64,000 nucleotides of DNA from Biomaibacter acetigenes (GTDB lineage: Bacteria; Bacillota; Thermosediminibacteria; Thermosediminibacterales; Tepidanaerobacteraceae): positions 124,001 through 188,000 of the forward strand of contig NZ_CP033169.1 in the NCBI RefSeq assembly GCF_003691585.1, written 5' to 3'. Under the pieces are notes generated by a model, which made no database searches, was not told the origin of the DNA, and was given only the letters and a program-made list of their open reading frames with translations. Shown here piece by piece: positions 32,386-37,846 of the stretch. Position numbers and translations under genes: made by a program. How positions within the stretch are numbered: position 1 is the stretch's first letter; each line of letters begins with the position of its first letter.

Positions 32386-32538
32386 CTCCTCTCTTGATTA
32401 CTCGGTAAAGCTAGCTGGCAATTATTCATTAAAAGCAGCAACTTTTATTTATTTTTTTTCCTGGAAATGCTATACTAGAGAAAATAGTCGAGGAAAATAT
32501 ATAGCAAAATTTTGTTACCGAAAAATTATAAATACTCA

Positions 32539-32567
32539 TTGACAGCGAAAAAAAGTAATAGTATAAT
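32539..32567 (+). promoter_or_regulatory. Consensus sigma-A promoter of the selenoprotein gene
   Basis: TTGACA at 32539-32544, exactly 17 bases, TATAAT at 32562-32567, both perfect consensus. The start codon follows at 32594 with GGAGGTGAGG between. Confidence 0.85.
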
Positions 32568-32593
32568 AAAATCAGCAAACGGAGGTGAGGAAA

Positions 32594-32881
32594 ATGGAAA
32601 AAATAGAGATTGATGAGAGGGCCAAAAAATATATCCAGGATAAGAAAAACGACACCATCACCATAAAGCTGGAGCGCTACGGCGGCGGTTGAGCCGGGTG
32701 TACTTACATGCCTGCCGTGTACGTAGGCGCGCCTGCTGATGCCAGCGAATACACTCTAAAAGAGGTAGACGGCATAAAAGTCTATGTCAGCCCCTTTGTC
32801 AGCATGGAAAGAGGCCTCAAGATATTCCTTTCGGGTTTCGGCATGTTCAAGGGCCTGGCAGTTGCACCGCTAAGTTATTAA
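32594..32881 (+). CDS. Small selenoprotein, HesB-like CC/Se-motif family
   Basis: A frame with a perfect promoter and ribosome site (GGAGGTGAGG) runs from the ATG at 32594. It meets a TGA at codon 33 (32690-32692) and continues in frame for 62 more codons to TAA. Around the TGA it reads ERYGGG-U-AGCTYMPAV. The rest (YVGAPADASEYTLKEVDGIK, then VYVSPFVSMERGLKIFLSGF) is a beta-rich HesB-like fold. This matches small Firmicute proteins with a Cys or Sec at the GG-U position. A bSECIS candidate is present: TGCCT/AGGCG stem, 11-base loop starting with G, 21 bases after the TGA. A simple nonsense mutation is the alternative but is less likely given conserved coding after the TGA. No sel genes are in the window. 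Confidence 0.77.
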
Positions 32882-32887
32882 TGTAAA

Positions 32888-33658
32888 TCAGGACTTTCGG
32901 TGTTCCTTATAAAGCTGTATGAACTTTAGTATAAAACTGAACTCTTCGGCTGTACAGTCTGCCACCAGCTCCAGGACCGACCGGACTTTCGGGTCTAAAA
33001 AAAGCTCTTTTAAAGCGGGGTTCATGGGCTTGAAAAGCGATGAAATCTCATCATCGTCTGCCACAAAATAGCATGGCGAAAGGGAGAGGGCTGATGCGAT
33101 CTTTTCCAGAGTCTTTATGGAAGGCTCCACCCTGCCGCTTTCGATCTGGCCGATGAGGCCCGTGGATACGCCGGCTTTTGCGGCCAGGTCTGCCTGGGTG
33201 AGATCCCGCTCCCGGCGAATCTTCTTTATCTTGTAGCCCACATGGCTGGTGGCGGATATCAGGTCTTCGGGGCAAACTTCCAGAGCCCGGGCGATAGTCC
33301 TCAAAGTGGACACCGCCGGCAGCACTTTGCCTTTTTCTATATGGCAAAGATAGGCTGCGGAAATGCCGGCCTTTTCCGCCAGTTTTGATTGGGAAAGCCC
33401 CTTTTTCTGGCGCAGCAGGGCTATCTTCTCACCGAGGGCTGTGGGACCGGGTGTAATGGTATCCGCTTCGGGGAAAAAACCTTCTTTTGACACATTTAGA
33501 GCTGAAGCCAGCTTTTCTATGGTTTCAAGAGAAGGCTGCTTTTTGCCCCGCTCAATTTCGCTCAGGTATGAAACCGAAAGTTCCGCCCGCTGGGCAAGCT
33601 CCTGCAGCGATAAATTTCGCTTCCGGCGAAGACTGCGGATTAATCTACCGTCTATCAT
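32888..33658 (-). CDS. Regulator with three tandem XRE-type HTH domains
   Basis: About 256 residues. Three Cro/cI-type HTH units lie in tandem: LIRSLRRKRNLSLQELAQRA (1), KIALLRQKKGLSQSKLAEKA (near 75) and KIKKIRRERDLTQADLAAKA (near 140). Each ends in the usual SYLSEIERGKKQPSLETIEK-like helix. A 60-residue C-terminal part may dimerise. Most such regulators have one HTH, so one polypeptide may contact three half-sites. The ATG at 33658 has AAGGGGTG nine bases upstream; an ATG at 33664 is also possible. Two palindromes in its promoter suggest autoregulation. It is tail-to-tail with the selenoprotein gene. Confidence 0.85.
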   Translation of the reverse strand: MIDGRLIRSLRRKRNLSLQELAQRAELSVSYLSEIERGKKQPSLETIEKLASALNVSKEGFFPEADTITPGPTALGEKIALLRQKKGLSQSKLAEKAGISAAYLCHIEKGKVLPAVSTLRTIARALEVCPEDLISATSHVGYKIKKIRRERDLTQADLAAKAGVSTGLIGQIESGRVEPSIKTLEKIASALSLSPCYFVADDDEISSLFKPMNPALKELFLDPKVRSVLELVADCTAEEFSFILKFIQLYKEHRKS

Positions 33659-33686
33659 AAACATGCACCCCTTCAAGAATTCTATA

Positions 33687-33922: not shown

Positions 33923-34237
33923 ATGAAACCGATAACCGTTACCGATGACAATTTTGACCAGGAAGTACTCCAGGCCGAAGGTAAAGTCCTTGTGGATATG
34001 TGGGCACCCTGGTGTGGCCCCTGCCGCATGATGGCTCCGGTGGTGGACGAGATTGCTGCCGAATACGAGGGCACCCTCAAGGTGTGCAAATTGGATGTGG
34101 ATGAAAACCCCGAAACCGCAGCCCGCTACGGAGTAATGAGCATCCCCACCCTCCTGGTGTTCGAAAACGGCCAGGTGGTAAATAAGCTCATAGGCTTCAG
34201 GCCAAAGCGCGACATTCTTGCAGAAATCGGCGTATAA
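33923..34237 (+). CDS. trxA: Thioredoxin
   Basis: 104 residues with the canonical active site WAPWCGPCRMMAP (residues 28-40), the conserved cis-Pro segment MSIPTLLVFENG and a normal thioredoxin length. It is the general cytosolic disulfide reductant. The ATG follows AAAGGAGGATTTCATA. A strong terminator follows. No thioredoxin reductase gene is adjacent. Confidence 0.95.
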   Translation: MKPITVTDDNFDQEVLQAEGKVLVDMWAPWCGPCRMMAPVVDEIAAEYEGTLKVCKLDVDENPETAARYGVMSIPTLLVFENGQVVNKLIGFRPKRDILAEIGV

Positions 34238-35645: not shown

Positions 35646-36455
35646 ATGAACGTTAAAGAAAAAATGAGTAACTTTAAAAAAAATCATGTTAAGATAAGCC
35701 CTGATAGAATGCATCAAAAGGATCATTTTACCGACGAAGTGGTAAAGCTTACCGATGTTACTTTTGCCTATAACGGCACTCCGGTGCTGGAAAATATAAA
35801 CCTTTCGGTGCAGGTTGGGGAATTCCTGGCCCTTATCGGCCCCAATGGTGCCGCCAAGTCCACCCTCATGAAGCTCATGGTGGGGCTTTTAAAGCCAAAG
35901 GCCGGAGAGGTAAGGCTTTTTGGTCAGGATATAAAGAGGTTTTGTGATTGGAACAGAATAGGTTATGTTTCCCAGCAGGCAGCCCATGTCAATACGGCCT
36001 TTCCCGCCACGGTGGAGGAAGTGGTGTCATCGGGATTTTACAGCGGCTTCGGGAAGCTTTTTGATAGCAAAAAGAGGCAGGAGGCGGTGGAGCATGCCAT
36101 GAAACTTACCGGGATTTCGGAACTTTCCCGCCGGCTCGTAGGCGAGCTTTCCGGCGGCCAGAGGCAGAAGGTCTTTGTGGCAAAAGCTCTGGTGAAAAAC
36201 CCTGAAGCTTTATTCCTGGATGAACCCACAACGGGCATCGATGCCGCGTCCCAGCAGGAGTTTTACAACCTGCTCATGGACCTGAACAGGAATGAAGGAA
36301 TTACCGTAGTCATCATCACCCATGACATAGGGGCGGCCTTCGGCAAGGCAAAAAAGATCGGTTGTGTGCGGGATAAAGGTGTCTACATCCATGAAAATAC
36401 AAATGAAGTCACCCAGGAGCATATAGCCGAGGTACTGGGGTATAAATTAAGTTGA
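35646..36455 (+). CDS. znuC: Zinc/manganese-type ABC transporter ATP-binding protein
   Basis: 269 residues. Walker A reads GPNGAAKST (Ala where most have Gly; this variant is known in ZnuC/AdcC-like ATPases). The protein also has a Q-loop (IGYVSQQAAH), signature LSGGQRQKVFVAKAL, Walker B ALFLDEPTTGID and the switch His (ITHD). It powers uptake of Zn2+ or Mn2+ with the permease at 36552. The first 35 residues (NVKEKMSNFKKNHVKISPDR and following) are a basic extension not usual in the family; a later start is possible. No substrate-binding protein gene is in this operon. Confidence 0.88.
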   Translation: MNVKEKMSNFKKNHVKISPDRMHQKDHFTDEVVKLTDVTFAYNGTPVLENINLSVQVGEFLALIGPNGAAKSTLMKLMVGLLKPKAGEVRLFGQDIKRFCDWNRIGYVSQQAAHVNTAFPATVEEVVSSGFYSGFGKLFDSKKRQEAVEHAMKLTGISELSRRLVGELSGGQRQKVFVAKALVKNPEALFLDEPTTGIDAASQQEFYNLLMDLNRNEGITVVIITHDIGAAFGKAKKIGCVRDKGVYIHENTNEVTQEHIAEVLGYKLS

Positions 36456-36551
36456 AGTGGCGCGGGACGTTTCGTTTGCCGCATATATGTCAGGATAGGG
36501 GGCGGTTCCATGTTCCAAAACAAGGGACTGTTATCAGGAGGTCTTATCTAA

Positions 36552-37361
36552 ATGTATATCTTTACTTTTGACTTTATGCAAAGAGCTTTTATAGCCGGCA
36601 TAATCACCGCAGTACTGGCCTCCGCCATGGGAGTCTTTGTGGTTTTAAGGCGCATGTCCATGGTGGGAGACAGCCTTTCCCATGCGGCCCTTTCAGGAGT
36701 GGCAGCGGGAATGCTGTTCGGGTTTTACCCCTTTTATGGGGCGTTGATTTTTTCAGCACTGGCTGCGCTTTTCATTGAAGCCATCCGAAAGGCTTTCAAG
36801 AAATATGCCGAAGTGGCCCTGGCGGTGGTGATGTCCGGGGGCATGGGCCTTGCAGTGGTCTTCATAAGCCTCGGAAAATCCTTTAATGCGGACCTTTTTT
36901 CATACCTCTTCGGAAGCCTGGTGGCGGTATCCCCTTCCGATGTATGGGTCATATCCGGCACGGGGCTTTTTATAATCCTGTCACTGGTGTTGCTTTCCCG
37001 GGAGCTTTTTTCCATCACCTTCGACGAGGAATCGGCCAGGCTTTCGGGGATACCGGTGGGGGTAGTAAACACATATTTCACTCTACTCACGGCTCTGGCT
37101 GTAGCCCTTTCAGTAAGGGTAGTGGGGACATTGCTGGTTTCGGCCCTCATGGTAATTCCTGCCGCCGTAAGCCTTCAGATTGCCAGGAGTTTTAAGGCTA
37201 CCTTCGTCATAGCTGTGGGAGTGGCCGTCCTTTCCGTAGTTTTAGGACTGTATATTTCCTTCGTGTTCGACGTGGCTCCCGGCGGCACTATTGTACTCAT
37301 AGCGGCGGCAATTTTGACGGTGGTGCTTATAGTAAGAGGATTCGAAGGTAAATTGACATAA
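36552..37361 (+). CDS. znuB: Zinc/manganese-type ABC transporter permease
   Basis: 269 residues with about eight hydrophobic helices and the ABC-3 family pattern: LASAMGVFVVLRRMSMVGDS and LSHAALSGVAAG near the start, then GTLLVSALMVIPAAVSLQIA. It forms the membrane channel for Zn2+ or Mn2+ together with the ATPase upstream. The ATG follows AGGAGGTCTTATCTAA. Spacing to the ATPase gene is 96 bases. The metal cannot be told from sequence; the Fur-family gene downstream has a PerR/Zur-like metal site. Confidence 0.88.
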   Translation: MYIFTFDFMQRAFIAGIITAVLASAMGVFVVLRRMSMVGDSLSHAALSGVAAGMLFGFYPFYGALIFSALAALFIEAIRKAFKKYAEVALAVVMSGGMGLAVVFISLGKSFNADLFSYLFGSLVAVSPSDVWVISGTGLFIILSLVLLSRELFSITFDEESARLSGIPVGVVNTYFTLLTALAVALSVRVVGTLLVSALMVIPAAVSLQIARSFKATFVIAVGVAVLSVVLGLYISFVFDVAPGGTIVLIAAAILTVVLIVRGFEGKLT

Positions 37362-37372
37362 GGAAATATTAA

Positions 37373-37401
37373 TTCAAGTCAAGAAACGTTTCTGACTTGA
37401 A
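37373..37401. repeat. Palindrome between permease and Fur-family gene
   Basis: TTCAAGTCA and TGACTTGAA flank AGAAACGTTTC, which is itself nearly palindromic, so the whole 29-base element is a near-perfect inverted repeat. It could be an operator of the Fur-family gene or a REP-like element. Confidence 0.5.
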
Positions 37402-37417
37402 TAGGATGGGAGCAAGT

Positions 37418-37846
37418 ATGATGAATATCGATGAAATGCTAAAACAAAAGCAATTGAAAGTCACCCCTCAGCGCAAGGCAATACTCACTGTGCTGGAAAG
37501 ATCCGAGTCGGTTTTGAGCGCCCAGGAGCTTTTCAGAGAGGTGCTGGAGCTTTTGCCCGGCACCAACTTTTCCACCATATATAGAAACCTTGATACGCTT
37601 CTTTCTAGAGGGCTTTTATGCCGCATCCCCCGGGAAAACGGCGGCGACCTGTATGAGATACGCAGGGAAGAAGGACACCACCATCATGTCATATGCAAGG
37701 GCTGTGGAGCATCGATCCCTGTGGATTTCTGCCCTATGGAAACCCTGAACTGTCAACTGGAGGAATATGGTTTTACTCCCACAGAGCACCATTTCGAGGT
37801 ATATGGACTCTGCAGCAAATGCAAAAAACAACATCGCATTCCATAA
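37418..37846 (+). CDS. Fur-family metal-responsive repressor (Zur/PerR-like)
   Basis: 142 residues. The DNA-binding half has VTPQRKAILTVLERSESVLS and NFSTIYRNLDTLLSRGLL. The metal region has EGHHHHVICKGCG, EHHFEVYGLCSKC with two CxxC pairs for structural zinc, and the HHHH loop for the sensing site. The gene is last in the metal ABC operon and probably represses it in response to Zn2+ (or Mn2+/Fe2+). The ATG at 37418 follows GGGAGCAAGT; a TTG at 37397 lies in the palindrome and is rejected. Confidence 0.88.
   Translation: MMNIDEMLKQKQLKVTPQRKAILTVLERSESVLSAQELFREVLELLPGTNFSTIYRNLDTLLSRGLLCRIPRENGGDLYEIRREEGHHHHVICKGCGASIPVDFCPMETLNCQLEEYGFTPTEHHFEVYGLCSKCKKQHRIP

Follow-up and report, generated by a model that had tools for sequence, protein, structure and literature searches.

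The locus at positions 32594-32881 raises a simple question: does a frame with a single internal TGA encode one selenoprotein, and if so, to what family does it belong and what might it do? The window, meaning the whole stretch of DNA analysed, spans 64,000 nucleotides of Biomaibacter acetigenes (G000:C1 124001-188000), whose genome is 3.4 Mb on one contig. A sequence-only reading of this DNA had proposed an unannotated small selenoprotein with a perfect promoter, a ribosome site, and a 95-codon frame interrupted only by TGA at codon 33 in a GGG-U-AGC context. All of these elements are present where that reading placed them, and the features that define the gene are listed below.

32539..32567, + strand: sigma-70 promoter TTGACA-17-TATAAT, with 12/12 consensus bases and a conserved GCG directly after the -35 box
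32581..32588, + strand: perfect ribosome-binding site GGAGGTGA, 5 bases before the ATG and kept in orthologues
32594..32881, + strand: predicted gene for a 95-residue selenoprotein of the CC/Se motif family, with TAA as stop codon
32690..32692, + strand: in-frame TGA at codon 33, the sole TGA of the frame, predicted to be read as selenocysteine (Sec, U)
32699..32701, + strand: codon for Cys36, the Cys of the U-A-G-C motif; its conservation is limited to the window's order, and U-C or U-x-G stands in other members

Comparison with homologues makes it nearly certain that this 95-residue gene encodes a real bacterial selenoprotein of the CC/Se motif family, a confidence that covers the selenoprotein and family assignments and not the function. 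With the TGA read as Sec, the protein scores 93.8 bits against NCBIfam NF041239, "CC/Se motif family (seleno)protein" (cut-off 40), and its residues 3-91 align with model positions 2-89 of 91. This is the best match in the NCBIfam scan and agrees with the family suggested earlier. Taken separately, the segments on either side of the TGA also match NF041239, the post-TGA one with 53 bits. Across six orthologue pairs, dN stays far lower than dS both before and after the TGA, and substitutions are mostly silent; for the post-TGA part and the nearest orthologue, dN is 0.06 and dS is 0.51. The earlier claim that coding character continues past the TGA is thus borne out by both substitution pattern and family score. 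The 12/12 promoter with the same GCG recurs in most orthologues within the order and also in the distant member L031.

A family member over the NF041239 cut-off occurs in 38 of 101 relatives, mostly with one internal TGA. The TGA stands at the same place in 28 aligned homologues, seven codons before a nearly invariant Pro, while Cys replaces Sec in ten named loci (L051, L065, L067, L068, L069, L071, L083, L085, L087, and L091). Column 33 is the only invariant Cys/Sec column in a 32-row alignment. The neighbouring Cys shifts, with U-A-G-C in the window's order and U-C-G in many other members.

These alignments also bear on two readings in which the TGA is a stop. A mechanical scan lists both parts as small ORFs in their own right, a peptide of 32 residues that would end at a genuine TGA stop and a second ORF of 57 residues starting from ATG 32708, but this division of the locus is extremely improbable. 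ATG 32708 is not conserved (it is CTG in L023, L024, L025, and others) and falls within a predicted beta strand, TGA-bearing members never carry TAA or TAG at codon 33 and the others carry Cys, and both halves belong to one family model and one fold. That the frame is instead a pseudogene, or carries a sequencing error that created an internal stop, has a vanishingly small probability: a frameshifted copy does exist in the related genome G004, but the same TGA is found in 28 homologues from separate assemblies, dN is well below dS on both sides, and the promoter and ribosome site are intact. The selenoprotein reading is retained in what follows.

The family itself already has a name in NCBIfam and appears among the prokaryotic selenoproteins listed by a 2026 review (PMC13188914). 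The kind being known from that review, the window gene is an added member and founds no new class; the sequence-only interpretation as a selenoprotein is supported, and its novelty needs to be toned down. The family has been predicted in Moorella thermoacetica with its motif given as CxxU (PMC13188914 Table 1). The window protein resembles the NF041239 family in its full-length match, its length, and its Sec at the family's position, but its motif is U-A-G-C, whereas the review gives CxxU and many members have U-C. It appears to share with the HesB-like selenoprotein TIGR01911 (motif UxGP) a general HesB/IscA fold and a Sec at the first ligand position, but it has Cys rather than Pro three places after the Sec, and TIGR01911 gave no match in the NCBIfam scan at E 10, the window motif being UAGC and not UxGP. 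A plasmid collection held no homologue of the window protein and none of the UU protein described below, the family profile had no match among PDB sequences, and an Rfam search over 32400-33000 returned sub-threshold chance matches only, nothing meaningful.

The genome carries the machinery that reading UGA as Sec requires. A search for selA, selB, selC, and selD, proposed in the sequence-only reading, located selD, selA, selB, and tRNA-Sec (selC) in one cluster at G000:C1 1992727-1997230, each above its curated cut-off. Neither outcome that the sequence-only reading had named as refuting, a genome lacking sel genes or homologues lacking Cys and Sec at codon 33, was thus observed. The selD gene of the same genome (L019, G000:C1:1996307-1997230) has an in-frame TGA of its own (TCSSG-U-AAKLG), so that, by analogy with a well-known case, production of selenophosphate synthetase in this organism must itself depend on reading UGA as Sec.

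The gene and SelA also travel together. SelA is over its cut-off in 70 of 101 relatives and present in all 36 relatives with a TGA-bearing copy that is not visibly broken (hypergeometric p 3.6e-8 for the link, with related genomes treated as independent). Within the window's taxonomic family, the gene is found in 5/5 genomes with SelA (G000, G001, G002, G005, and G007), and an intact gene is found in 0/8 genomes without it, some of these assemblies being incomplete. One such genome, G004 (L188 / L072), retains the frameshifted remnant. In G006, G008, G009, G010, G011, and G012, the coding region is gone and the 12/12 promoter is kept. At these loci (L189, L191, L192, L195, L208, and L209), the orphan promoter, with its GCG, faces the 3' end of a convergent helix-turn-helix (HTH) gene, and an antisense transcript to that HTH gene is one possibility for its persistence.

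Decoding of the UGA would further depend on a bacterial Sec insertion element (bSECIS), and a candidate hairpin follows the TGA.

32709..32729, + strand: bSECIS-type hairpin, with stem 32710-32715/32723-32728, outer U-G pair 32709/32729, and loop CGUGUAC at 32716-32722

In a gapless alignment starting at the TGA, a stem at columns 21-26/34-39 is common to 28 sequences and was found by RNAalifold unguided. Counting the outer pair, 92.3% of cells are paired, with changes on both sides that keep pairing in 4/7 pairs; as a control, the hairpin slid by 1-3 columns has 22-40% paired. One covarying pair lies at non-silent positions, where Thr41 occurs with Val44 and Ala41 with Ala44 or Val44, combinations demanded by base pairing. 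The Val codon in the loop is GTG in 28/28 sequences, whereas GTG makes up 46/205 Val codons elsewhere in the same genes.

The published bSECIS limits are an upper stem of 4-16 bp, a loop of 3-9 nt with G in its first two positions, a distance of 16-37 nt from the UGA, and an energy of -7.5 or lower (PMC13188914). The window hairpin lies within all of them, with a stem of 6-7 bp, a 7-base loop, G at loop position 2, 23 bases from the UGA, and -8.9 kcal/mol for the hairpin alone. The minimum-energy structure predicted for the 48 bases that follow this gene's UGA is a different, longer one that is no better than shuffles (z -0.27), and the assignment of this putative element rests on its conservation. 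The stem-loop proposed earlier is real and conserved, but its limits were slightly off; given the conserved stem and loop, 23 bases and not 21 separate the TGA from the loop.

The predicted protein structure points to a known fold. An AlphaFold2 model of the window protein has a pLDDT of 91.8, and the solved structures in the PDB that match it best are those of SufA and IscA, with a Foldseek E of 2.5e-5 and, for 1s98, a Z of 8.7 over 87 residues, in accordance with the HesB-like fold that had been proposed. A profile comparison aligns Sec33 with IscA Cys35, an alignment that is weak alone (probability 6%); the IscA sequence used in it agreed with 1s98. The window protein resembles the A-type carriers IscA and SufA in its predicted fold and in Sec33 at the place of IscA Cys35. 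It differs in lacking the C-terminal CxC of IscA, which is absent from every other aligned member as well, and in sequence scores far below the IscA, SufA, and ErpA model cut-offs (TIGR00049, 17.7 of 58.8 bits; SufA, 18.8 of 136.2; Pfam PF01521, 18.1 of 26.3).

A role as an A-type carrier of iron-sulfur clusters (IscA/SufA/HesB), with selenium as a ligand, would suit the fold and the position of Sec33, and one UU paralogue adjoins a gene for an Nfu scaffold. The missing CxC makes a standard carrier role improbable, however, and the low model scores weigh against it, as do neighbours that belong to thioredoxin, zinc transport, and arsenic genes and not to isc/suf. The window protein is probably not a standard iron-sulfur carrier, and an A-type carrier with a selenium ligand is quite unlikely. 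The conserved surroundings of the gene are the following.

32888..33676, - strand: convergent protein with three HTH_3 domains, adjoining the gene in 14 loci, a candidate regulator
33923..34237, + strand: thioredoxin TrxA, a conserved neighbour
35646..37846, + strand: zinc-type ABC transporter ATPase and permease and Fur-family regulator, conserved neighbours

In the window's order, the gene is flanked on one side by mannitol PTS genes and on the other by a block comprising the HTH protein, trxA, the zinc-type ABC transporter, and the Fur-family regulator. Thioredoxin, ABC transporter, and Fur genes are also near the distant member L128. No intrinsic terminator was found between the selenoprotein gene and the convergent HTH gene. 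Paralogues of the gene adjoin arsD-arsA or arsR-arsA-arsE.

The promoter offers a second kind of association. The signature TTGACAGCG-N14-TATAAT has two perfect copies in the genome, in promoters that are almost identical, one at window positions 32539-32567 and the other at G000:C1:2760105-2760133, where it precedes a thioredoxin/glutaredoxin-domain protein with a GroES-like gene. Among relatives, genes for a NapH-like iron-sulfur membrane protein and an ACR3-like transporter have the same signature in front of them. Across 21 genomes, 37 of the 504 perfect promoters have GCG after TTGACA, and about 20 of the 37 belong to the gene itself or to loci from which it has gone; with those removed, roughly 17 of 484 compare with 7.6 expected if all triplets were equal, which is a crude background. 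The enrichment is weak, so a regulon defined by this promoter signature is a lead only. Small MerT-like and FmdB-like genes with an in-frame TGA also lie behind the same signature in other genomes (L174 1561-1869; L206 600-812; L165 1580-1825).

Taken together, the neighbours and promoter twins point to thiol/selenol chemistry that involves soft metals or metalloids, in a protein that would be reduced by thioredoxin. Neighbourhood and modelled fold suggest, as the most likely function, a protein linked to thioredoxin/glutaredoxin that either binds soft metals or metalloids or undergoes selenol-thiol redox cycling, a tentative proposal held at somewhat short of even confidence. A narrower role, confined to selenol/thiol oxidoreduction or peroxide scavenging with thioredoxin as the recycling partner and without any metal function, draws on the trxA gene adjoining the gene in the order and on the twin promoter before the Trx/Grx protein. 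It is nonetheless rather unlikely: the family has no common resolving Cys, the second residue being C34, C36, or neither.

The hairpin would recruit SelB with Sec-tRNA, as established knowledge of bacterial selenoproteins suggests, and UGA 33 would be decoded as Sec. Sec33 takes the place of the first cluster-ligand Cys in the predicted IscA/SufA fold. Under the broader proposal, metal(loid) binding or redox chemistry could proceed through Sec33 and, in the window's clade, the nearby Cys36, with the protein kept reduced by the thioredoxin/glutaredoxin system.

A sister gene outside the window broadens the family. This paralogue, at G000:C1 998081-998365 (L053 1582-1872), has two adjacent TGA codons (...NIHG-U-U-NAFYAPSG...). 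It scores 35.5 bits against NF041239 with Cys put in, which is below the cut-off, and some of its relatives score above it. Among 398 sampled genomes, 10 keep the tandem TGA, at 11 loci; it is also kept in L055 from one more genome of the first sample, and in 9/9 loci of a separate named collection that partly overlaps the other samples; its carriers in that collection include Thermosediminibacter litoriperuensis, Thermovorax subterraneus, an Anaerosolibacter MAG, and Alkaliphilus peptidifermentans. In all, the window genome and at least a dozen other genomes have the TGA-TGA paralogue. Family members with Cys-Cys at the tandem position exist, as do Sec-Cys members.

Behind the TGA-TGA comes a strong hairpin whose four-base loop mostly starts with G, with 97.8% of cells paired. 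Its distance is 24 bases to the first TGA and 21 to the second, which places both within bSECIS range of one hairpin. Both tandem codons of the predicted UU gene are likely read as Sec. In the window's order, the UU gene follows an aldehyde ferredoxin oxidoreductase gene and a ThiS-like gene; elsewhere it adjoins arsD-arsA (L108), arsR, arsA, and arsE (L111), an ArsR-type regulator (L110), or nfu (L107). None of the 119 families in the 2026 review has a UU motif (PMC13188914). A partial literature search for adjacent Sec or tandem UGA in a bacterial selenoprotein found none, a result that does not establish absence from the literature. It is conceivable, at slightly under an even chance, that the CC/Se family includes a subfamily in which one hairpin drives Sec-Sec insertion, and that the whole family is a selenium-based binder of soft metals or metalloids such as arsenic, with the window gene as its single-Sec branch.

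The gene enlarges the CC/Se family with a well-supported member and provides a natural knock-out series, in that close relatives without selA are also without the intact gene and several keep its perfect promoter. Beyond membership, the function and the tandem-UGA branch are the interesting parts. Links to arsenic and thioredoxin genes suggest a testable function for the family. Decoding of the tandem-UGA genes would be striking, because one hairpin would have to drive two successive Sec insertions, and if both codons are read as Sec, their products would contain a natural vicinal diselenol.
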